From the IMG/VR virus record IMGVR_UViG_3300027861_000070, positions 1 through 40,202 of that record: a stretch of DNA of 40,202 nt. The stretch is one strand, 5' to 3'. How positions within the stretch are numbered: the stretch's first letter is position 1; each line of letters starts with the position of its first letter. The stretch comes from a virus. The notes under the pieces were generated by a model, which worked only from the letters and a program-made list of their open reading frames with translations, was not told where the DNA came from and did not search any database. Made by a program: the position numbers and the translations under genes. Below, in pieces: positions 1-40,202 of the stretch.

Positions 1-145
1 TATTTTTCCTTTAAATACGAATTCACTCTCGATACCTAATTCTAACAAACGAGATGTAGTTGAATTCCATTGAACCACTCGACCTGCACTACTATCATCG
101 AGAGCACCCTTTAAAATAGCAACTGCTGTTCGGTTATTAAATAGA
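1..145. repeat. Terminal direct repeat, left copy
   Basis: These bases recur at the right end of the window. The only difference is position 19 (G here, A at 40076), which changes a Phe codon from TTC to TTT in the gene that spans the join. The repeat lies inside that gene, so it is best read as the overlap of a circular or circularly permuted genome rather than as a functional repeat. Because the overlap is not perfect, it is not a pure k-mer assembly overlap and probably records strain variation or a read error. Confidence 0.93.
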
Positions 146-402
146 TTATCGCAATCATCTAAAATTATAACCTTATCCGAATTCTCTTGTAGAATCGTAA
201 ATAAGGAAAGTGGTGTAGAATACGATTTAATATATTTATATGGTATCTTCGATTCTTTAACCTTCTTTAAAACTTGTGTCGTCTTTCCAAATCCAGGTTC
301 ACCATCGATGATTAATCCATTTGTTTTCGGATTATCTCCCAAAACAATATCGATATAGGTGTTTAGAGAATTATACTTGTTATCAATATTTATTATATCC
401 AT
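1..402 (-). CDS. AAA+ ATPase with C-terminal HTH, N-terminal part (continues at the right end)
   Basis: This is the first 134 codons of a 275-residue protein whose remainder lies at the right end of the window. The joined protein shows a Walker A motif GEPGFGKTT (residues 34-42), Walker B VIILDDCD (78-85), a sensor-1-like strand KIIIIVNEFN (133-142), a possible arginine finger near R154 and a C-terminal helix-turn-helix (about 251-268). This resembles ORC/DnaA-type initiators and transposition or partition ATPases. It is inferred to bind DNA as a replication initiator or partition/regulatory ATPase. The ATG has no ribosome binding site and lies about 29 nt after a TTTATATA box, so the mRNA is probably leaderless. 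It is transcribed leftwards, away from the class II amidotransferase gene's 3' end. The exact family is not recognised. Confidence 0.82.
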   Translation of the reverse strand, partial: MDIINIDNKYNSLNTYIDIVLGDNPKTNGLIIDGEPGFGKTTQVLKKVKESKIPYKYIKSYSTPLSLFTILQENSDKVIILDDCDNLFNNRTAVAILKGALDDSSAGRVVQWNSTTSRLLELGIESEFVFKGKI

Positions 403-423
403 ATATATATACGGTATTACTCA

Positions 424-431
424 TATATAAA
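424..431 (-). promoter_or_regulatory. TATA box of the AAA+ ATPase gene (leaderless promoter)
   Basis: On the minus strand the box reads CTTTATATATGAG and a second AT-alternating tract (TATATATATAT) runs straight into the ATG at 402. The spacing of 29 nt from the first T of the box to the ATG places the transcription start at or next to the start codon. The same arrangement precedes other genes in this genome. Confidence 0.7.
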
Positions 432-495
432 GGTTTGTATAGTAGAATATATATATTCGAGAATGTAAAATAAGAAAAAAAAAGAAAAAATTGGT

Positions 496-1578
496 TTATT
501 CCATATTTACTTCCGGAGTCAAGAAGGACTCAAAGTCGAGACTTATCCAATCACCATCTTGTTCGGCTTCATAGAATTCTTCGAGGATTTCATCTGTTGC
601 TTGTTTGTTTCTTACCTTAACAAATATCATTCCGTCTTGGTAGTCAATTCTCGATGATGTATTAACTTCTCCCGATAGTTCTACTAACCTTTCTCGAACT
701 TGGTCTATTTCAACTTCAGCATACGGATATTGTTGTATCCAATCCTTCAACGTCTTTCCATAATCCCAATGTTCGTCTATCACATATTGTGGTTCGAATC
801 TTTTAGCATATCCACCATACGTGCTGGTTGTATTCTCTTTGAAATCAACGAGTGGTTTTATACTTTTCTTTGTTATCCGATAGATAATCTGGTCCTCTAC
901 TTCCGTTATTACTCTGCTATAATATTTCGGTTTTACAAATATCATATCATACATCGTGTAGCAGTTTTCTATTGTTTCTTCATTCGTTGAACCAATCAAA
1001 ACCTTCCCTTTCTTGTCTTCAACCAAAGCCATATAAAAATCCGTCTTATCATTCTTAAAATAGTATAACATTCCGGATTCTTTATGGTAGCATATTACCG
1101 AATACCACCCACTTATCTCTTCGGCTACTTTCTTTACACAATCATTCTCGGTTTCTCCTTTTTCTGTAAAGTATTCGAGTAGTCTTGGGATAATCGCACT
1201 ATCCACTTCTTCACGATATTTTAGTTTGTATTGTTCCTTCAACTCGTCATCATTGTATAAGACCCCGTTGTGAACTACCATCCAATTTCGTGTTTCTATT
1301 GGGTGATTATTCTCGTTTTTCTTCTTATCTCCTTTCGTAGCAAGTCTGTTATGTCCTACGAGGAAGTTTCCTTTTACCTCGCTTAAAAACCTAACAACCT
1401 TTCTGCTCTTCGTCTTCTTATTGAATCCTTTACCGATTTTGTAAGTGTTTAAATGGTTGAAGAAACCGAAAGCATCATTATTTCTCTCTGCTCCTTCGTT
1501 CATCATTCTTACAAACTCGGCTTTGTCTTCATCGTTAATGTCTCCATTAAACCGGTTAATTAATTGTATTTCACACAT
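496..1578 (-). CDS. Class II glutamine amidotransferase (Ntn-hydrolase fold)
   Basis: A 360-residue protein. The start is taken at the Met directly before Cys2 (MCEIQLINRF), because the class needs a processed N-terminal cysteine nucleophile; an upstream in-frame Met would bury it. Family motifs follow in order: GHNRLATKG (75-83), NNHPI (90-94), VVHNGVLYN (101-109) and EVDSAII (124-130). The family releases ammonia from glutamine and passes it to a partner synthase or ligase. The ATG overlaps the last 8 bases of the amidoligase gene (ATGTGTGA), so the two are translationally coupled. The C-terminal half (about 230-360) is not recognised. Inference: it supplies ammonia to, or trims amide bonds made by, the neighbouring amidoligase. 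Confidence 0.88.
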   Translation of the reverse strand: MCEIQLINRFNGDINDEDKAEFVRMMNEGAERNNDAFGFFNHLNTYKIGKGFNKKTKSRKVVRFLSEVKGNFLVGHNRLATKGDKKKNENNHPIETRNWMVVHNGVLYNDDELKEQYKLKYREEVDSAIIPRLLEYFTEKGETENDCVKKVAEEISGWYSVICYHKESGMLYYFKNDKTDFYMALVEDKKGKVLIGSTNEETIENCYTMYDMIFVKPKYYSRVITEVEDQIIYRITKKSIKPLVDFKENTTSTYGGYAKRFEPQYVIDEHWDYGKTLKDWIQQYPYAEVEIDQVRERLVELSGEVNTSSRIDYQDGMIFVKVRNKQATDEILEEFYEAEQDGDWISLDFESFLTPEVNME

Positions 1579-3253
1579 CTTTGTTTTTCTCCTTATTCTT
1601 TCCGTTTTGCATGTCATCGTATAATGCATATATCACTGCGTTTTCTTCTCCTAATTCTGCTCGATTTAATCTCTCAACAATATCTCCGAATAGTTTCACT
1701 ATTGGTTTTCTCAGTCGATTATATTCTTCTTCTGTTAATAGCGAAGGTTTTATATCAAACCCTCTAATTAACCGAACTTTCCAATCACCGTATGTTCCTT
1801 TTAAAAGCCCATAGTGTCGTATGTAGTCTATTCTTTTTATTTCATCGGATATACTTATCGAATGGTAAGCCGATAAACTTATCCCACCAATAAACCTTAC
1901 GAAGTCTTTAAACCTATACCGAGCGTCTCTTTCTCGACTTATGTAAGCCCCAAATAGTTTTCGAGATGCTCTTTGTCCATTAACCGAACCATAAAACTTA
2001 TATAATTCGGTTTCAGAGATATCAAGGATATGTAAATCGGATTTTAGAGTTATTCCTTCTCTCTTACGAACATTGGTTTCTACTTCCTTAAAATCGGCTT
2101 TAATATTCTTTATTACCTTACGAGGAATTTTTGTATTAAACTTCTTTCTTCGTTTAAGGATATACTTTTCTAATCCCTTGTCGTTCAAGATACTAAAAAA
2201 CCCACTCAACCGATTCTTTAAAGACATTATTTTCTTTATGTCGGTTTTTAAAGCCCAATTAATCAATGCTTCGTTTATTCTTATCCAATTTATAATCTTC
2301 TTCGAATCTAATGTTCCATTATGGTTCCTAATCTCGATAGTTTTTTTAGTTACTCTCGGATTATTTCTCCCATTGAAGTAGTTCGTTAGATTTAAGAAAT
2401 TATATCTCTCGCAAACTATTGAGTTTGTCGCATCATTCCAATCACCGAGTTTATGCCCTTTAAACGCAGGAAATCCTACCTTTTTGTGCATCGGTAGTTT
2501 GTAGCAATAGTTGTTGGTTCGTCTTGATGGAGATACCATCTCGAATAGAAAATCTGAGAAAGTATGATAGACGTAATATATTCTTTCAATGTCATGCTCG
2601 TTTAAATCTCTTGCATCGAAATGTATATGTAATCCACACGAAGTTTCTATTCTATACCCGTTTCTGTTTAAAACTTTACATAAGTTACGAATATTCCTAT
2701 ATAACTCGTCTCCATTCATCGGGTATGTAATAAACTCTACGCCATTGTTTAAACTTCCATCGTGTTTTGCTTCAACTTTATTTGCTAATCCGAACGCTTC
2801 AAGCGTAGGGCGTAAATCGGAATTTGTTTCTCTATTTGTTTCTGTTTCGATTTCAACACCTACAAACCGTTTAGATTTGTTCTTTTTATACGTCGCTGAC
2901 TCAAAGAACTTAAAAATTGGTCGCATAAAGAAACGATTTGTTTCTTCACAATCGCAACAACCACCACAACAATCACATTCCGAACAGAATGAAACATCTT
3001 CCGAATAATAGTTTCCACAACTATCGCAATAGCCAGATTGGTCGCAAGCACAACTATCGCACCAATCACTCCCTAAATCGTGGATATATACTCCATCTTC
3101 GGAATAGTAATTATCTCCACAATTCTCGCAACAACCAATATGTTGCTCGAAACACTTTTCACAATAGTCATCTCCATCGAATCTATGTTCTACTTCTACG
3201 AGTTCTTTGGAACACCAAACACACGTATGTTTGTCTTTCTTTTCGTTTCCCAC
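1571..3253 (-). CDS. Amidoligase_2-type ligase with a cysteine-rich zinc-ribbon N-terminus
   Basis: A 560-residue protein. Residues 11-102 hold 19 cysteines, mostly in CxxC pairs, suggesting several tandem zinc ribbons. From about 128 the protein matches the Amidoligase_2 (glutamine-synthetase-like) family: VGVEIETE (131-138), KHDGSL (163-168), GVEFITYP (171-178), GLHIHFD (207-213) and TIEIRNHNGTLD (305-316). Members are predicted to join a carboxyl to an amine using ATP. The start is GTG, preceded by GGGAGGTG at a 5-base spacing, and shares one base with the stop of the 49-residue gene upstream. The class II amidotransferase follows with an 8-base overlap. Residues 340-560 are basic and unassigned. 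The substrate is unknown; the ribbon array may recognise a protein or nucleic acid. Confidence 0.85.
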   Translation of the reverse strand: MGNEKKDKHTCVWCSKELVEVEHRFDGDDYCEKCFEQHIGCCENCGDNYYSEDGVYIHDLGSDWCDSCACDQSGYCDSCGNYYSEDVSFCSECDCCGGCCDCEETNRFFMRPIFKFFESATYKKNKSKRFVGVEIETETNRETNSDLRPTLEAFGLANKVEAKHDGSLNNGVEFITYPMNGDELYRNIRNLCKVLNRNGYRIETSCGLHIHFDARDLNEHDIERIYYVYHTFSDFLFEMVSPSRRTNNYCYKLPMHKKVGFPAFKGHKLGDWNDATNSIVCERYNFLNLTNYFNGRNNPRVTKKTIEIRNHNGTLDSKKIINWIRINEALINWALKTDIKKIMSLKNRLSGFFSILNDKGLEKYILKRRKKFNTKIPRKVIKNIKADFKEVETNVRKREGITLKSDLHILDISETELYKFYGSVNGQRASRKLFGAYISRERDARYRFKDFVRFIGGISLSAYHSISISDEIKRIDYIRHYGLLKGTYGDWKVRLIRGFDIKPSLLTEEEYNRLRKPIVKLFGDIVERLNRAELGEENAVIYALYDDMQNGKNKEKNKDV

Positions 3254-3402
3254 TATAACACCTCCCTCAACTCGAGTATTCTATTACATTGGAGGATTAA
3301 ACGTTCAATTCCTTCGTTACTTACTTCGAAGAGATTAACGTTAAAACCCTCTAACACAAAAGATTGCTCGATAGTTAATTTTTCTTTTGTCGTTAATTTC
3401 AT
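3253..3402 (-). CDS. 49-residue protein leading the amidoligase operon
   Basis: A small gene starting at an ATG with a strong site (GGAGG, 8-9 bases upstream) and ending in TAG, whose last base begins the GTG of the amidoligase gene. The product begins MKLTTKEKLTIEQSFV and ends RILELREVL. It is predicted to be mostly helical, with one cysteine (39) and many Glu/Lys. No family was recognised. Tight coupling to a ligase and an amidotransferase makes a carrier or substrate peptide possible, but a small regulatory or adaptor protein fits equally well. Confidence 0.7.
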   Translation of the reverse strand: MKLTTKEKLTIEQSFVLEGFNVNLFEVSNEGIERLILQCNRILELREVL

Positions 3403-3416
3403 TATTTTTTCCTCCA

Positions 3417-3451
3417 TTCGCCTTTAAATAGGTTGGTTTTCGCCTTTAAAT
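3417..3451 (-). promoter_or_regulatory. Tandem TATA-like repeats before the amidoligase operon
   Basis: The 13-base sequence TTCGCCTTTAAAT occurs at 3417-3429 and 3439-3451, exactly 22 bases apart. Read on the minus strand each copy gives ATTTAAAGGCGAA, an AT-rich box with a GC-rich flank. The distal copy would start RNA near 3420, leaving a short leader that includes the GGAGG site before the ATG at 3402. The pair may be two promoters, or a promoter and an operator. Confidence 0.45.
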
Positions 3452-3706: not shown

Positions 3707-3886
3707 TTATTCTCCTCGATATACACCCTCGTTAAATTTATCTAAGTCTCGACTTAATGTTTCTATTAGTTCGGTTAATCCTTCTATCTTAACGTTTAAT
3801 CTATTTATTGCTTGTTCTTTCAAAAGAATTTGATAAATCAAATCGGATTTGCTAAATCCCTTCAATTCATCGATTGTATATGTCAT
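3707..3886 (-). CDS. Small coiled-coil protein
   Basis: A 59-residue product starting MTYTIDELKGFSKSDL. A short N-terminal segment resembling a Rho-N/SAP-like helical motif is followed by a helical heptad-like stretch. The start at 3886 is preferred over an upstream GTG because GGGAGGTG lies about 6 bases before it and overlaps that GTG. The ATG overlaps the upstream stop (ATGA). It is the last gene of a run of tiny minus-strand genes. No function can be assigned. Confidence 0.65.
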   Translation of the reverse strand: MTYTIDELKGFSKSDLIYQILLKEQAINRLNVKIEGLTELIETLSRDLDKFNEGVYRGE

Positions 3887-4164
3887 TTTTTCCACCTCCC
3901 GGCTAATGCCTTCGATTGTGTTAAAGATTTATATATTGCGAATTTTTGTCTATTGTCTCCGGAACCAAGTCCTTTTCCTTCCGAATATTTCTTTTCATAA
4001 AACTTTAACAATCGGTTTTTATATTCTAACCTATCAGCATTCGGTCCAATAACCTTTAAAATGTTGTCGGTTACATAGTCTTGTATTTCCTTTATCGTAG
4101 GTTTTGAGAGTGCTTCGGTTAGAAACACACTCAAAAACTCACGATATATTAATTCATCATTCAT
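3883..4164 (-). CDS. Small protein of unknown function
   Basis: A 93-residue basic, mostly helical product (MNDELIYREFLSVFLTEA at the start). It ends with ALAGRWKK. It is coupled on both sides: its ATG lies inside the end of the preceding gene (8-base overlap) and its TGA overlaps the next ATG. A weak site (AAGGAA) precedes the start. No family was recognised. CG-containing codons match its neighbours in this block. Confidence 0.7.
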   Translation of the reverse strand: MNDELIYREFLSVFLTEALSKPTIKEIQDYVTDNILKVIGPNADRLEYKNRLLKFYEKKYSEGKGLGSGDNRQKFAIYKSLTQSKALAGRWKK

Positions 4165-28238: not shown

Positions 28239-29018
28239 ATGAGCTTGGAGAGTTTGATGATGAAGCATGAAAGGTTAGTGATGGTAAATGATATACATGT
28301 ACCATTCCACGATGAAAAGACATTAGAGTCCGTTAAGTATGGACTAAAATATATGAAACCCGATAGACTTATCTTGGGTGGAGATATAATAGATTTCTAT
28401 AGTATAAGTCAGTTTCAAAAAGACCCTGCTAAACGAATGAGTTTACAAGCAGAAGTTACAGAAACAAAAGGAGTTCTTGAGGATTTAGTTAAAGCTGTTC
28501 CAAAAGGATGTAAAGTAAATTATTTATTAGGTAATCATGAAGAGAGATTACAGAAGTATATTCATTCTAATTCACCAGAATTGCATTGGGTAGATGGACT
28601 TAAGTGGTATCAAATACTTGGATTACAAGATTTAGATATAAGACCAATAGACCAAAGATGGATGGAATACAAAGGAATAATGTATAGCCATCTAAATAGA
28701 GCAAATAAGTATGGTGGATATACAGCAAAGAATTTAGGTACAGATTTTAATAGAACAATAGTACACAGTCACACACATAAGACAGGACATGTAAAGCATG
28801 GAACCTTAGATTTCTATGATAATGGATGTTTATGTGATTTACAACCAGAGTATATGTCTGGTAGTGGACCAAGTGTATGGAGTCAAGCATTTATGGTTGT
28901 TGACTATGTTGGTAAACAAGCTAACTTTAGTCAGATACAGATTAAAGACCATATGTTTGTATATGATGGGAGGTTGTTTACCCCAGATGGCTACCGTAAA
29001 TTCACAAAGAAAAAGTAA
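28239..29018 (+). CDS. Calcineurin-like metallophosphoesterase
   Basis: A 259-residue protein starting MSLESLMMKHERLVMV, with GGAGGT six bases upstream. The metal-binding motifs are DIH (18-20), GGDIID (47-52), GNHE (98-101) and HSHTH (176-180). Relatives hydrolyse phosphate esters of nucleotides, DNA ends, proteins or lipids. It opens the rightward accessory cluster, followed after two bases by a zinc-ribbon gene. The substrate is unknown; roles in DNA processing or host nucleotide signalling are both possible. Confidence 0.85.
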   Translation: MSLESLMMKHERLVMVNDIHVPFHDEKTLESVKYGLKYMKPDRLILGGDIIDFYSISQFQKDPAKRMSLQAEVTETKGVLEDLVKAVPKGCKVNYLLGNHEERLQKYIHSNSPELHWVDGLKWYQILGLQDLDIRPIDQRWMEYKGIMYSHLNRANKYGGYTAKNLGTDFNRTIVHSHTHKTGHVKHGTLDFYDNGCLCDLQPEYMSGSGPSVWSQAFMVVDYVGKQANFSQIQIKDHMFVYDGRLFTPDGYRKFTKKK

Positions 29019-31342: not shown

Positions 31343-31856
31343 AGAAATGTATGAAATAGAATGTAAAAGAGACCACACAGATATGTATTATCATTTACCT
31401 AAATTAAGGGAATATGCAGAGAAGTGTGAACACATAACAGAAATGGGTGTAAGAGATGTACTATCTACTTATGCGCTTTTAATGGGAAAACCGAAGATAT
31501 TAAAATCTTATGATATTGAAGCAACAAAGAAAACACATAGGATACCTAAGCAAGATAATTTTGAATATATAATAGAAGATGTATTAAAAATAGAAATAGA
31601 AGAAACAGATTTCTTATTCATAGATACATTACATACATATAAACAATTATCTCAAGAACTAAAACTTCATGGGAATAAAGCTAAAGAATATTTGGGCTTT
31701 CATGATATATCTAGCTTTGGTGTTACTGGTGAGGATGGTGGTCCTGGATTGTTAAAAGCAATTTCTGAATTTAAAAAAGATAATCCTTGGTGGGTAGAAG
31801 ATTATGTAACTTATGCTTGTAATGGATTATTAATATTAAAAAGGGTTAAATTTTAA
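31332..31856 (+). CDS. Methyltransferase-like protein (CmcI / Methyltransf_24-like)
   Basis: A 174-residue product beginning MDIKEMYEIECKRDHTDM. It shows a SAM-site-like ITEMGVRDVLSTYALL, DFLFIDTLHTYKQL with the acid after the second Rossmann strand, and GFHDISSFG with GEDGGPGLLKAI, as in CmcI and rhamnosyl O-methyltransferase relatives. An earlier in-frame ATG (31320) is possible, but GGGA seven bases before 31332 favours this one. It closes the rightward cluster; its end overlaps the convergent primase gene by 11 bases. Confidence 0.72.
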   Translation: MDIKEMYEIECKRDHTDMYYHLPKLREYAEKCEHITEMGVRDVLSTYALLMGKPKILKSYDIEATKKTHRIPKQDNFEYIIEDVLKIEIEETDFLFIDTLHTYKQLSQELKLHGNKAKEYLGFHDISSFGVTGEDGGPGLLKAISEFKKDNPWWVEDYVTYACNGLLILKRVKF

Positions 31857-32739
31857 CCCCTATTTCTTTTAATAAATCTCTCCTGTATCTTTCACTAACT
31901 CTTCTTTTACTTTTATAAACTCCTTCTACTGTTCCTTTAATTTGCTTTAAAAACAAATAACCCCTTAAAGTATAGGAATTCCATTCACATAATTTAGAAT
32001 AACATTCATCTTCTGTTAATCCTTGTTGTGCATACCAACTTGCTAAGATAAACAATACTCTCTTTTTACCATCAGTATTAACCATATCATTTGATAGAAA
32101 ATATTTTATATCATCTGGTTCACCATTAGTGATTGGTATCTTCTTAATTGTATATTGTGCCATAGCTTTATCAACATCATATTTGATAAGTACTGAATCT
32201 TCTATTTGATTCTCTCCAAAATCTTCACTGTGTTTCAGTGACTTCATTCCACCTTTCCGACTTCTACAATTCTCTAATTGTATCATTGGAGTTAAGTGAA
32301 CATGTGCTTTCCCTTCATGGTGTGTTAGATATCCATAACAGATATCTCTTAATAATAATCTTTTGATTTCATCTCTTTCATACTTTCCATAGTTTAATAA
32401 TTCATCAAAGAAAATATGGAAGTGATATCCTGTTCCTCCACTCTTCCACAAGGAATAGGATATCTTTTTATTAGTTAATCTTTTTTGTATATCTTCAACA
32501 GTTTTATCTTGTGCTTCTTTTATTTCTTCTCTAGTTGCATCTTTTGAATGATAATCTAAATCTAAACATAATTCAGAGGGTAAAACTTCTCTATGGTTTG
32601 GATGTCCATGATAAGATAAGTATTCTGAATATTTATGGTCTTTATAGTTGTGCCATGGGGTTGGATATTTAAAGAATCTTTGAACTCTAAAGTGAAATCC
32701 ATACTTCCTATAATAATATTCTAAATAATCTTTTATCAT
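31846..32739 (-). CDS. Archaeo-eukaryotic primase (PriS-like)
   Basis: A 297-residue protein. The catalytic acids are in LCLDLDYH (57-64; Asp60 and Asp62), then KSGGTGYHFHIFF (99-111), the conserved Ser/His nucleotide site, and LENCRSRKGGMKSLKH (155-170) with a basic patch. The C-terminal part (about 228-275, RVLFILASWYAQQGLTEDEC) is a PriCT-like helical domain. It makes primers for viral DNA synthesis. It is the last gene of the minus-strand replication operon that also encodes an AAA+ helicase, which supports this role. It is strong evidence of an archaeal-type replication system. Confidence 0.88.
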   Translation of the reverse strand: MIKDYLEYYYRKYGFHFRVQRFFKYPTPWHNYKDHKYSEYLSYHGHPNHREVLPSELCLDLDYHSKDATREEIKEAQDKTVEDIQKRLTNKKISYSLWKSGGTGYHFHIFFDELLNYGKYERDEIKRLLLRDICYGYLTHHEGKAHVHLTPMIQLENCRSRKGGMKSLKHSEDFGENQIEDSVLIKYDVDKAMAQYTIKKIPITNGEPDDIKYFLSNDMVNTDGKKRVLFILASWYAQQGLTEDECYSKLCEWNSYTLRGYLFLKQIKGTVEGVYKSKRRVSERYRRDLLKEIGVKI

Positions 32740-32984
32740 ATTCCCCCCCTAGAACTTATTGAAAAACCCTCACTTTTTGGCATTCCAGTTAATTTAATTA
32801 ATTTATGTTCTTCTAAAACATTTCTAACAGCAATGTCTACAATCTCTATAATTCTCTTTTTAGGGAATATTTTTTTGATTTCATCAGCCAATAGTTTAAT
32901 CCCCAAACTCATCCCTTCATATTCCCCACAAAGGAAGGCTGCTTTTTCTCCTCTTATAGTTGCAGAAGGAGTTTCAAACTTCAT
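32736..32984 (-). CDS. Small protein upstream of the primase
   Basis: An 82-residue product starting MKFETPSATIRGEKAAFL, linked to both neighbours by ATGA overlaps. A short strand-rich start is followed by two helices (IKLLADEIKKIFPKKRIIEI). It is a candidate primase cofactor or replication accessory by operon position. No family was recognised. Confidence 0.65.
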   Translation of the reverse strand: MKFETPSATIRGEKAAFLCGEYEGMSLGIKLLADEIKKIFPKKRIIEIVDIAVRNVLEEHKLIKLTGMPKSEGFSISSRGGI

Positions 32985-33292
32985 TCAGCCACCATAAGTT
33001 TATCATTAATGGCATCAGTTCTTTGTTGATAAACCCAAACTAACTCTTCTAGTCCATCAGTTCTAAATGCTTTTACTTTTCTTCTAATATAATAATCTGG
33101 ATATCCTTCTATCCAATCATAATTCTTTAATTGTTCTTTAGTTACTTCAAACATTTCTCCTTCAACATAGTCTGTTACACTAGCACTAATTATAGTATCA
33201 TGTCCTCTAACTATCTTCTTGAATCCCGGAAGAATTGCATACTTTGCATCTTCTCTGGTTCCTACCAATATTCCATATACAAATAGTTTCAT
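32981..33292 (-). CDS. Gamma-glutamylcyclotransferase/AIG2-like protein (GGCT fold)
   Basis: A 103-residue product starting MKLFVYGILVGTREDAKY. The family hallmarks are the opening LFVYGILV and the stretch NYDWIEGYPDYYIRR with the catalytic-type Glu62. The family cleaves gamma-glutamyl amines through cyclisation or acts on similar isopeptides. The start at the Met of MKLFVYG is preferred to one four codons earlier, whose GAGG site is too close. Such proteins occur with amidoligases and class II amidotransferases in other genomes; here these are encoded 30 kb away (or about 10 kb across the join). ATGA overlap with the next gene. Confidence 0.82.
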   Translation of the reverse strand: MKLFVYGILVGTREDAKYAILPGFKKIVRGHDTIISASVTDYVEGEMFEVTKEQLKNYDWIEGYPDYYIRRKVKAFRTDGLEELVWVYQQRTDAINDKLMVAE

Positions 33293-33293
33293 T

Positions 33294-33944
33294 TTAAAAG
33301 TCATTCCTCGCTATTACTTCTGTCCACTCTTCCCAAGTTCCTCTATGCTTACAGTATAATCCTGTATCAACAAAGGTTTTAAATCCTTTCTTATAAACAT
33401 CTTCATGGAAATACATATCACAATGTGCTTCACCAAATCTAAACTCTCCAATAGCTTCTAAGACTTCTCTTTTGATTAAACAACATCCTAATCCACATCC
33501 ACCTTTAGCTTCTATAACTTCTCCACTTGTAACATCTCGCCATTCTATTGATTGAATAGACATTCTAGACTTTCCTGTTGCTGGATGTCTTATCCTTACT
33601 TTCTCTCCAGTAAATGCACAAGGATATCTTGATTTCTTTGGACCAACAGTATACATTGCTCCAACTACATCTAAATCATGTCTAAGTAATTCTTCAACTA
33701 CACATAACTTTGGGAGTATATCTGCTTCAAGAGTTAGTAAGTGAGTACAATCACTTTCAAGGAATTTCTTAAGTAACTCATTATAACCTTCTGTTATTCT
33801 ATCTCTACTACTCTTTCCTTCATAACCATCTGTCCATACTTCTTGGATTACTACATCTTCTATGAATTCTCTATGGTCAAGAAATTCATGTCTACAATAA
33901 TCCTTTCCATGATATGTGACTGTTCCTATCATTACTTTACTCAT
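33294..33944 (-). CDS. Glycosyltransferase-like protein, paralogue of the one at 10183
   Basis: A 216-residue protein starting MSKVMIGTVTYHGKDY. It has the same plan as the 10183-10941 protein: an opening VMIGTVTYHGK strand, THLLTLEADILP with the acidic site (EAD, 73-75), GGCGLGCCLIKREVLEAIG, and FKTFVDTGLYCKHRGTWEEW at the end. It is a probable GT-A glycosyltransferase. Here it lies in the replication operon, coupled by ATGA to the nuclease gene, while its relative is in the head module. A role in modifying DNA bases or proteins is possible; the donor sugar is unknown. Confidence 0.75.
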   Translation of the reverse strand: MSKVMIGTVTYHGKDYCRHEFLDHREFIEDVVIQEVWTDGYEGKSSRDRITEGYNELLKKFLESDCTHLLTLEADILPKLCVVEELLRHDLDVVGAMYTVGPKKSRYPCAFTGEKVRIRHPATGKSRMSIQSIEWRDVTSGEVIEAKGGCGLGCCLIKREVLEAIGEFRFGEAHCDMYFHEDVYKKGFKTFVDTGLYCKHRGTWEEWTEVIARNDF

Positions 33945-34294: not shown

Positions 34295-34629
34295 TTATAC
34301 CACTTCCTTTCTTCGTATACTTGTAATAATTCCTTTAAACCTGTATTTTCAGATTCTAATTTATCACATTCTTTTCCTAATTTTATTGATGCTTTTATTT
34401 GTACATCTAAATCTTTAAGTAAACTTTTTATATTTTCTGAACTACTCCTCTTTGGTATTCCATATTCTTCCATCCATACATCAAATATTGCTTGTTTCTT
34501 TGCTGTAACTACACCATCATCTACTAAACAATCTGTGTCTGGGTGTATCCACATGTCCCCCATGTTGATTAATTCACTTCCACACAGTGAACATTTCTTT
34601 TCATAATCACTTATATTATATCTTTTCAT
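34237..34629 (-). CDS. Zinc-finger and coiled-coil protein
   Basis: A 130-residue product starting MKRYNISDYEKKCSLC. CSLC (13-16) with a downstream HPDTDC (29-34) forms a likely zinc site; residues about 70-110 are a coiled coil and the C-terminus is basic (MKTKSTKN). The ATG overlaps the helicase stop by 4 bases. It may help load the helicase or bind DNA; no family is recognised. Confidence 0.65.
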   Translation of the reverse strand: MKRYNISDYEKKCSLCGSELINMGDMWIHPDTDCLVDDGVVTAKKQAIFDVWMEEYGIPKRSSSENIKSLLKDLDVQIKASIKLGKECDKLESENTGLKELLQVYEERKWYKWLWESTKGMLMKTKSTKN

Positions 34630-35972
34630 TCTATTACCTCCATTGAGTAAGTTTCATTTTCTATTGGATGAAATAATTTTAATCTTCCATCTTCATTCAA
34701 TTGCTTTTGATACCATTCATCTGCTATGTCTGGAAAGTGTTTTTTCATATTATCATATCCTGCCTTTAAACATTCAGTAAAGTCAAACTTATTCTCAAAC
34801 TCTTCTACTTCATCAGTTTTATGGTATAGGAATTTTCTACCAATGATATCCTTTCCTAAGAATCCAGCTTCTACTAAATCCTCACATTGTTGTTGGACTG
34901 TGTTGTGTTTTAACAATATTCCTTTATCCTTTAAAAAGGTATGTATTTTTGTAGTTGAATGATATATCTTATCTTCTCCTTCTTCATCTTGGAATAGTGT
35001 TTGTTGTGCTTTCTCTTTATCTTTCTTCCAACCTTTAATATCCCCATCAAATATCTTCATAATATCTTCACCAAGTTGTGGTAAGTTATGAACCTTTCTA
35101 TTAAATGTTTTACCATATAAAGCATGCACAGTGTATATATCTTGCATTGATGAAAAGTAAGCTTCATCTTTAGATGTTCTATCTTTAAAATAGAACTTTG
35201 TACAAGCATCTATTAAGTTGTAATAGTGGTTGATGTGACTCCTAACCTTTACAAAAGGTACTGGTACTTGCTTTGCTATGAATTCAGCAAAGGGGTTCTC
35301 TACAGTTTTAGAAGATAATGCTAGAACAGATTTTATATGTCCACATAATTTTTTAGACATTTCTTCTTCTTGTATCTTAAGACGGCTTTTACAGAATCTG
35401 GATTTACCAATGTATTTTACTACTTTCCTATTCTGTTTCTGAGAGATGTCCGTCATAAAGTTAATTACTCTTCTATCTAGTTCATCATCTTTCTTTGTTT
35501 TGTTTTCCAGGGCTAATGAATAGAGAACCCCTAAGTCTCCTTTTATCTTAAAGTCTACATTCTTTCTAGAGACAGCATCATAAACTTTTCTTGTAATTGA
35601 TTTTCCTTCTGTTATGTTCTTAAGTATTTCTACCATAATTGGGTTGTTAGAGTTGATTGCTTTTTGTAATTCTTCTATGTAAATGATTCCAGCATTGTTC
35701 ACTGCTTTGTAGTCATACATAGTTGCAGTATTACTTGTTAATCCTAACTTGTAGATTTCATCTTCTGGGAGTAGTAGCATAGCTATATCCAACAATACTG
35801 TTTTACCAGAACCACTAAGGCTCTCAACACCACAAGGTATCTTGTTGGTTGCTGCTAATGTAAGCAGTATTGCATTCTCTTCTTCCCCCACTAAACCACA
35901 GTTTCCAAAGAATCCAACAATTTCTCTTGTTGTTGGTTGGAATGGTTTAGGTAAATCTACATCTATTATCAT
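34626..35972 (-). CDS. AAA+ replicative helicase-like ATPase
   Basis: A 448-residue protein. Walker A is ESLSGSGKT (50-58), Walker B GIIYIEEL (95-102), and a sensor/arginine-finger region LALENKTKKDDELDRRVI lies at 153-170. The C-terminal third holds a winged-helix-like stretch (TKIHTFLKDKGILLKHNTVQ, about 346-365). This is the arrangement of MCM-like or other superfamily III/AAA+ viral helicases. In one operon with a primase it is inferred to unwind DNA at viral forks. ATGA overlaps link it to the small genes on both sides. Confidence 0.82.
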   Translation of the reverse strand: MIIDVDLPKPFQPTTREIVGFFGNCGLVGEEENAILLTLAATNKIPCGVESLSGSGKTVLLDIAMLLLPEDEIYKLGLTSNTATMYDYKAVNNAGIIYIEELQKAINSNNPIMVEILKNITEGKSITRKVYDAVSRKNVDFKIKGDLGVLYSLALENKTKKDDELDRRVINFMTDISQKQNRKVVKYIGKSRFCKSRLKIQEEEMSKKLCGHIKSVLALSSKTVENPFAEFIAKQVPVPFVKVRSHINHYYNLIDACTKFYFKDRTSKDEAYFSSMQDIYTVHALYGKTFNRKVHNLPQLGEDIMKIFDGDIKGWKKDKEKAQQTLFQDEEGEDKIYHSTTKIHTFLKDKGILLKHNTVQQQCEDLVEAGFLGKDIIGRKFLYHKTDEVEEFENKFDFTECLKAGYDNMKKHFPDIADEWYQKQLNEDGRLKLFHPIENETYSMEVIE

Positions 35973-38060: not shown

Positions 38061-39074
38061 ATGAAATATTTTAGTATGTTCAGTGGAATAGGAGGATTTG
38101 AATATGGAATTGAAAAAGCAATTGGTAGTGAAGCAGAATGCATTGGGTACTCAGAAGTTGATAAGTACGCAATCCAAACTTATGAAAAACACTTCCAACA
38201 CAAAAATTATGGAGACGCAACAAAAATCAACCCAAGTGAATTACCAGACTTTGATATGCTCTGTGGAGGATTTCCTTGTCAAGCATTCAGCATTGCTGGA
38301 AAGAGAAGAGGATTTGAAGAAGCTAGAGGCACCTTGTTTTTTGACATTGCAAGAATTCTTAAAGTTAAAAGACCTAAAATTGTATTCCTTGAAAACGTCA
38401 AAGGGTTACTCAATCACGAAAAAGGGAAAACTTTTAAAGTCATCATTCAAACGCTTTCAGAATTGGGGTATGATGTTCAATGGATGGTACTTAACAGCAA
38501 ATTTCATGGAGTTCCCCAAAACAGAGAGAGGGTGTTTATTATCGGAAATCTTAGAGGAGAAGGTAGACCCGAAGTATTACCTCTCAGACAAATTGAAGAA
38601 TGGTTTAATGAGGAGAATAAAGAGAGGGGAGAGAATGCCCAAATTGCTAGAACAGTCTTAGCACAATACTATAAATCTCCACCAGATGCAAATTATATAT
38701 TGCAAGTAAATGAACCAACACATTCAAATGATAGAGTGTATTCTGATGAGGGTATAAGTCCAACTTTAAATAGTATGCAAGGAGGACAAAGACAACCAAA
38801 AGTATTATGTGTAGATGATGGTGCAAGTCCTAAATATCAAAATGAAATGGTAGAACAATCTCCGGCTTTAAAAGCAACAAGAAGTAATTACAAGTTAACA
38901 ACAGAGTCAGCAGTTAGAAGATTAACACCATTAGAATGTGAGAGACTTCAAGGGTTTCCAGATAATTGGACAGAAGGAGTAAGTAATACACAAAGATACA
39001 AACAATGTGGTAATGCTGTAACCACAAAAGTAATCACAGCAATAATGAGAAAGATGGAGGAAAAAGATGAGTAA
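38061..39074 (+). CDS. DNA (cytosine-5-)-methyltransferase
   Basis: A 337-residue protein with all core motifs in order: I FSMFSGIGGF (4-13), IV GGFPCQAFS with catalytic Cys73, VI ENV (111-113), VIII QNRERVFIIG (153-162), the variable target-recognition region (about 170-285), IX RRLTPLECERLQGFPDNWT (286-304) and X GNAV (317-320). It methylates C5 of cytosine in an unknown DNA motif. No partner restriction endonuclease was seen, so an orphan methylase protecting viral DNA from host restriction or marking it is probable. The end overlaps a tiny membrane-peptide gene. Confidence 0.92.
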   Translation: MKYFSMFSGIGGFEYGIEKAIGSEAECIGYSEVDKYAIQTYEKHFQHKNYGDATKINPSELPDFDMLCGGFPCQAFSIAGKRRGFEEARGTLFFDIARILKVKRPKIVFLENVKGLLNHEKGKTFKVIIQTLSELGYDVQWMVLNSKFHGVPQNRERVFIIGNLRGEGRPEVLPLRQIEEWFNEENKERGENAQIARTVLAQYYKSPPDANYILQVNEPTHSNDRVYSDEGISPTLNSMQGGQRQPKVLCVDDGASPKYQNEMVEQSPALKATRSNYKLTTESAVRRLTPLECERLQGFPDNWTEGVSNTQRYKQCGNAVTTKVITAIMRKMEEKDE

Positions 39075-39631: not shown

Positions 39632-40202
39632 TTATTTATGAGACTTTGAGACTTTTTTCTTAATCCTATAAAATGTGGCTCTGGAAAGCCCAGAGTCCTC
39701 ACTAAAAAGTCTCACTTGTTGTCTCACCCTGAGACTTTTATCTCTCGTTGCTTTAAAGTAAGCAACCATCCCTTCATCTTCCACCACAATGTCCTTTAAA
39801 GCCATTTTAAGAGCGTTTAATCCTTTTTTGGTATATATACTCACCAATTTATAGAACACTCTTAAATCAAACGTATGGGCTTCTGTGACGAATTCTGATA
39901 GTAATTTAAATACCTTCCTTTCTTCTCTTTTTCTAACAAATTTCTTCAAAATAGCCAATTTTTCCTTTAAATTGAAGAAAACTGTAACATTATAGCACCT
40001 CGATTGAATTGCTTTAATATCATTATTTCGAGTATTAAATTCATTAACGATGATTATTATTTTTCCTTTAAATACAAATTCACTCTCGATACCTAATTCT
40101 AACAAACGAGATGTAGTTGAATTCCATTGAACCACTCGACCTGCACTACTATCATCGAGAGCACCCTTTAAAATAGCAACTGCTGTTCGGTTATTAAATA
40201 GA
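39632..40202 (-). CDS. AAA+ ATPase with C-terminal HTH, C-terminal part (begins at the left end)
   Basis: These bases encode the C-terminal part of the 275-residue protein whose N-terminus is at 1-402; the last 145 bases repeat the left end. The region includes the end of the Walker B helix area, the sensor-1 strand KIIIIVNEFN, a lid with the arginine-rich KKFVRKREERK segment and a C-terminal SEDSGLSRATFYRIKKKV helix-turn-helix. The HTH part of the gene (39640-39735) holds five GAGAC/GTCTC units. The protein is inferred to bind these or similar sites as an initiator or partition factor. Confidence 0.82.
   Translation of the reverse strand, partial: LFNNRTAVAILKGALDDSSAGRVVQWNSTTSRLLELGIESEFVFKGKIIIIVNEFNTRNNDIKAIQSRCYNVTVFFNLKEKLAILKKFVRKREERKVFKLLSEFVTEAHTFDLRVFYKLVSIYTKKGLNALKMALKDIVVEDEGMVAYFKATRDKSLRVRQQVRLFSEDSGLSRATFYRIKKKVSKSHK
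39640..39735. repeat. GAGAC iteron-like cluster with a hairpin, candidate origin
   Basis: GAGAC/GTCTC occurs five times: GAGAC at 39640, 39648 and 39731, and GTCTC at 39709 and 39721, several extended to TGAGACTTTT. AAAAAGTCTCA (39704-39714) and TGAGACTTTTA (39730-39740) form an inverted pair with one mismatch. Between them CTCTGG/CCAGAG (39679-39695) forms a 6-base stem. The cluster lies in the 3' part of the initiator-like gene, the same kind of placement as the lambda origin inside gene O. Confidence 0.45.
40058..40202. repeat. Terminal direct repeat, right copy
   Basis: This is the same sequence as the first 145 bases except A at 40076 in place of G, a silent change in the AAA+ gene. Joining the copies makes one continuous 275-codon gene. 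Confidence 0.93.

Follow-up and report, generated by a model that had tools for sequence, protein, structure and literature searches.

The virus genome analysed here (the window, a 40,202-base virus record) carries, side by side, genes for a zinc-ribbon amidoligase and a glutamine amidotransferase (GAT). The pair is a diverged example of a kit that is already widespread in phages and in the genomes of gut bacteria. With somewhat better than even confidence, the two genes (positions 496-3253) are read as a virus-borne, glutamine-dependent amide-forming enzyme that would place ammonia or a small amine onto a carboxylate, with an acceptor in the envelope favoured.

The direct repeat at the termini of the window is 145 bases long with one mismatch and suggests that the genome is circularly permuted or complete (Table 1). 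The open reading frames (ORFs) flanking the ligase/amidotransferase pair encode small proteins and an AAA ATPase. Elsewhere, the window encodes a C5-cytosine DNA methyltransferase, which possibly modifies the viral DNA and so protects it. The window yielded neither a tRNA nor an Rfam family, its sigma-70 promoter-like and terminator-like sites do not outnumber those of shuffled sequences, and PADLOC defence models matched neither the window proteins nor three representative homologues. Exact-peptide searches of viral contigs for close kin of the ligase or the terminase found none. A motif search with a helicase-like protein led to seven viral loci, whose kinship to the window was not recognisable and which were hence dropped.

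Table 1. Features of the window and of related loci. Positions refer to the 40,202-base window unless residues are given.
Feature	Position	Strand	Details
AAA-type ATPase gene	1-402 and 39632 to end	-	spans both ends
Terminal direct repeat	1-145 and 40058-40202		
Amidotransferase, 360 aa	496-1578	-	ATG 1578, TAA 496
Ligase, 560 aa	1571-3253	-	GTG 3253, TGA 1571
Ligase, zinc ribbons	residues ~10-102		
Ligase, GS-like catalytic core	residues ~128-345		
Ligase, C-terminal extension	residues ~346-560		window ~1571-2218; also delimited as residues ~380-560
49-residue ORF	3253-3402	-	ATG 3402, TAG 3253
Two exact copies of TTTAAAGGCGAA	3417-3428 and 3439-3450	-	upstream of 49-residue ORF
Small overlapping genes	3707-4164		upstream
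Metallophosphoesterase	28239-29018		phrog_221
Weakly PriS-like gene	31846-32739		
GGACT/GGCT-like gamma-glutamyl cyclotransferase homologue	32981-33304	-	PF06094, 4.3e-9; replication operon
P-loop protein	34626-35972		
C5-cytosine DNA methyltransferase	38061-39074		PF00145, 2.1e-93
55-56-residue gene just upstream of ligase			loci L091, L093, L108, L109, L132, L135, L142, L145, L148, L150, L156

A first-pass annotation of this DNA described three coupled, overlapping genes, and they lie where it placed them. The 49-residue ORF and the ligase meet in the sequence TAGTG, with one base common to both, and the ligase and amidotransferase genes overlap by 8 nt. The overlaps agree with translational coupling, but since each of the three starts is preceded by a Shine-Dalgarno-like sequence of its own, coupling is possible and not required. 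Overlap is in any case ordinary in this operon, because the neighbouring small genes upstream overlap too. The operon was also said to have its own upstream repeats. Two exact copies of TTTAAAGGCGAA are indeed present and possibly represent a putative promoter or leader element, but their enrichment is slight: with up to two mismatches, there are 12 matches in the window against 4.7 expected, a weak signal that is partly Shine-Dalgarno-like sequence.

The ligase is an Amidoligase_2 enzyme with a predicted glutamine-synthetase-like (GS-like) fold. Residues 163-330 match PF12224 at 4.9e-21, with a score of 76.2 bits against a cut-off of 22 bits. The ExE, HxH and ExR active-site residues of the GS-like fold are kept, invariant or nearly so: E134, E136, D165, S167, H209, H211, R244, E307 and R309 are invariant among nine aligned phage enzymes, and residues of both the ribbon and the core are conserved in an alignment of 65 sequences. 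The AlphaFold2 model built on the latter alignment has a mean pLDDT of 68.4, with block values of 84-97 over residues 11-90, mostly 77-94 for the core and less than 50 for residues 402-506. Foldseek matched this model to YbdK (1.2e-4), to glutamine synthetases (2.3e-4 and weaker) and to the depupylase Dop and the Pup ligase PafA (4.4e-3 to 1.3e-2), thus ranking the ligase closer to YbdK and glutamine synthetase than to PafA. The TM-scores are low (0.2-0.4) because the core alone aligns. These predictions agree with the GS-like core that the first-pass annotation had expected. Neither the ligase nor the amidotransferase reached the cut-off of any NCBIfam model, and a plasmid collection gave two Phocaeicola matches, restricted to the catalytic core.

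The N-terminal ribbons contain exactly 19 cysteines, as counted originally, in residues 11-102, with seven CxxC motifs. When scored by a profile of other ribbon ligases, the ribbon reaches 39.4, whereas 1000 shuffles that preserve the cysteine positions stay at or below 18.9; the ribbon is therefore homologous to those of the other ligases and not merely cysteine-rich. RNF216, its best sequence match in the PDB, was rejected as kin (E = 0.13, not significant). The C-terminal part of the ligase, with low model confidence in its middle, has no relative in the collected loci.

The 360-residue protein downstream matches GATase_6 (PF13522, 3.5e-15) and is, judged by its sequence, a glutamine amidotransferase of class II (Ntn) that retains the residues needed for catalysis. 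A cysteine directly follows the initiator methionine, and the H-x-R, HNG and D-S motifs (R78, N104-G105, D126-S127) are present; C2, R78, N104, G105 and D126 are invariant among six phage enzymes. In the PDB, it matches the glutaminase domain of GlmS (3.8e-7).

Ribbon ligases paired with an amidotransferase form a distinct, tightly linked two-gene unit common to viruses and gut bacteria. A search of bacteria and archaea with one genome per species (84,980 species) gave 80 loci, nearly all of them clostridial by their record titles. The ribbon, defined as at least three CxxC before the core, is present in 77 of the 80, and a GAT adjoins the ligase in 72, with a gap of at most 5 nt in 69; in four of the eight loci without an adjacent GAT, the ligase sits at the edge of the sequence stretch or close to it. 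These Oscillospiraceae and other clostridial pairs (for example, L011-L090) share with the window the multi-CxxC ribbon, homologous by profile, the amidoligase core and the abutting GAT. However, their ligases are mostly about 370 residues long and end soon after the core, while that of the window is about 180 residues longer, and GGCT is absent within their flanks. A serine recombinase is often found downstream: in a cluster of 35 of these loci, a small serine-recombinase-like protein follows the pair about 2.3 kb past the ligase start, which suggests mobility of the clostridial pair.

Among viral contigs, 69 were picked up with a degenerate DNA motif taken from the ligase; 40 of these have the ribbon form and 32 of those 40 an adjacent GAT, compared with a GATase_6 of any sort in one of 40 random viral records; recovery by the ligase motif biases the pairing frequency to this group, and the ribbon fraction is no population estimate. 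The pairs of uncultivated viruses (L091, L107, L108, L109, L142, L145 and others) have the architecture and order of the window, with five to nine CxxC in most ligases and often a small gene upstream. They differ in sequence, at about 20-32% identity to the window, in the upstream peptide, which where present is of another kind (55-56 residues), and in the lack of GGCT from the ribbon records. The features that mark the unit, a homologous multi-CxxC ribbon fused to an amidoligase with a GAT next to it, are all found in the window. The suggestion that the ribbon-ligase fusion might be undescribed does not stand, given that 77 of the 80 loci from clostridia carry it, as do 40 viral contigs, and a viral structural neighbour of the ligase even bears the name 'LIM domain containing protein'.

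Relatives of the metallophosphoesterase occur within the ligase locus in 13 of 40 ribbon-type viral loci, one of 29 non-ribbon loci and none of 40 random loci. In the window, about 25 kb separate this gene from that of the ligase. The co-occurrence may be explained by clade sharing.

The GGCT-like gene was correctly placed in the replication operon by the first-pass annotation, although its start is at 33304 and not 33292. The GGACT match scores 37.4 bits against the PF06094 cut-off of 22.8, and phrog_2520 is matched at 5.9e-9. The YGxL motif and E66, the family's catalytic Glu, are invariant in the alignment; the Thr or Ser usual in the YG[TS]L motif is replaced by Ile in the window. The gene belongs to an operon separate from that of the ligase pair and about 30 kb from it. 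Amidoligases, class II GATs and GGCT-like proteins were said to recur together, which holds in part: the pairing of amidoligase and GAT is widespread, and GGCT is associated with phage amidoligases generally, but the ribbon form is largely separate from it. Taking whole viral records, GGCT is found in nine of the 29 with a non-ribbon ligase but in none of the 40 with a ribbon ligase (Fisher p = 0.0002, an optimistic value, as many records are fragments and some share a clade, those of one clade not being independent). Random viral records had none in 40. The window is the sole record with both a ribbon ligase and GGCT among the ribbon-type viral records examined.

Better-known phages combine these genes in other ways. 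In LUZ24 (gp16-gp22) and phiEco32, a COOH-NH2 ligase, an amidoligase, a GAT, ATP-grasp genes and GGCT are close together, and in the Arthrobacter phages Salgado and Ottawa, GGCT, amidoligase and GAT are annotated as consecutive genes. Published papers also describe an amidoligase with GGCT in a Clostridium difficile island (PMC3485107) and in C. clostridioforme prophages (PMC11318856), and with a GATase in OM43 phages (PMC10580990). LUZ24, phiEco32 and Salgado/Laroye/Ottawa resemble the window in that an Amidoligase_2 gene is followed, directly or at a short distance, by one for a class II GAT, in that the genome also has a GGCT, and in their catalytic residues. The ligases of LUZ24, phiEco32, Salgado and Ottawa, however, have no zinc ribbon.

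The proposed mechanism starts with the amidotransferase, in which Cys2 would become the N-terminal nucleophile once the methionine is removed. As a class II enzyme, it would use this cysteine to hydrolyse glutamine and release ammonia, and the ligase, with its GS-like fold, would activate a carboxylate with ATP and join it to ammonia or another small amine. Asparagine synthetase, GlmS and PurF are established cases in which a synthetase domain receives its ammonia from a class II glutaminase. For the window pair, the domains, active-site residues, fold and adjacency of the genes are seen in the data, whereas passage of ammonia between the two separate proteins is inferred. The amine donor could also be something other than ammonia. 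The zinc ribbon would be a likely docking surface for a partner or substrate. In Staphylococcus aureus, MurT and GatD are likewise an ATP-dependent ligase and a glutamine amidotransferase encoded together, but MurT has the fold of Mur ligases and GatD belongs to class I, and the likeness to the window pair is one of functional analogy only.

By analogy with a published proposal for phiEco32, a carboxylate of the host surface or cell envelope would be favoured as acceptor over the 49-residue peptide. That proposal, in which phiEco32 would modify the surface against superinfection, is credited to Iyer et al. 2009 in passages of two later papers (PMC11318856, PMC10580990). The literature, in the passages available, contains no biochemistry for any ribbon-type member, no paper giving the product of an amidoligase/amidotransferase pair, and no results from mutants or enzyme assays that bear on these genes.

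The LUZ24 and phiEco32 cassettes, and the gene order in Salgado and Ottawa, also suggest another arrangement, a peptide or isopeptide pathway in which the ligase joins amino acids, the amidotransferase amidates the product or supplies nitrogen, and GGCT strips gamma-glutamyl groups. The retained catalytic Glu of the window GGCT is consistent with this. However, the genes beside the window pair include no recognisable ATP-grasp or COOH-NH2 ligase partner, GGCT lies about 30 kb off in the window whereas it adjoins the amidoligase in Salgado and Ottawa, and its absence from all 40 ribbon-type records contrasts with its frequency among the other viral ligases. A cluster of ATP-grasp and GGCT genes with the amidoligase, the mark of a cassette of the LUZ24/phiEco32 type, is thus not found in the window, and such a pathway is considered unlikely here, albeit the most credible of the alternatives to an amide-forming enzyme acting on the envelope.

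Less credible still, at rather long odds, is a role in auxiliary metabolism, in which the enzymes would feed the nitrogen or glutamate metabolism of the host, as proposed for Planctomycetes Phage-ZRK32. Passages of the report on that phage (PMC10945688, eLife 2024) list a GAT, an amidoligase, a glutathione synthase and GGCT and state that the phage promotes growth with nitrate or ammonium, but they do not link the growth effect to these genes by mutation. The fused ribbon, moreover, would suggest a dedicated partner or target over bulk nitrogen flux.

The 49-residue ORF at the head of the operon is probably translated. GGAGG lies upstream of its ATG, and its codon signal is ambiguous, at -0.08 bits per codon compared with a median of -0.32 and a maximum of 0.20 for spurious ORFs. 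A single-sequence model of low confidence (mean pLDDT 61.7) has a C-terminal helix at residues 29-48. No relative was found in 50,697 phage records or in the collected loci, a search whose reach is set by the lack of any close relative of the virus for comparison. A conserved gene of 55-56 residues precedes the ribbon ligase in 11 viral loci; the one member of this family that was tested had no match in NCBIfam. The family was rejected as a homologue of the 49-residue protein, with an hhalign score of 9.5 where shuffled peptides reach 14.4. In the clostridial neighbour clusters, in which genes of at least 50 residues were counted, no conserved leading peptide stood out.

The first-pass annotation had seen in the 49-residue protein a possible peptide substrate and expected its frame to be conserved in relatives. 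Conservation was not found as far as the search reached, and without homologues or a Pup-like C-terminus (the protein ends in ...REVL, and Pup needs Gln or Glu there), and with an ambiguous coding signal, the protein makes a poor candidate. That the ribbon ligase would attach or modify it as a Pup-like or precursor peptide, in a counterpart of pupylation that arose independently in an archaeal virus, is highly improbable: the ORF does overlap the ligase, PafA and Dop do share the GS fold, and a different small gene does stand just before the ribbon ligase in other viruses, but small genes are common throughout the window operon, no counterpart of 50 residues or more stands out in the clostridial clusters, and the window lacks the combination that characterises pupylation, a PafA-type ligase and a conserved small peptide whose last residue is Gln or Glu.

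For the amide-forming enzyme favoured here, the nature of the host matters, as the cell-wall proposal is easier to reconcile with a bacterial than with an archaeal host. The P-loop protein has HRTV-21, HRTV-9 and HJTV-1, all haloarchaeal viruses, as its sole matches in the phage collection (about 1e-4), and its HJTV-1 homologue adjoins an archaeal-type primase. Another gene is weakly PriS-like (2.1e-3, below the cut-off), and the best-covered match of the terminase is Halogranum tailed virus 1 (HGTV-1). A tailed virus with an archaeal host is plausible, a reading that rests on few replication genes. If the host is archaeal, the bacterial cell-wall explanation needs to be replaced or widened. 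In either case, the ribbon-amidoligase/GAT unit is a compact target for biochemistry.
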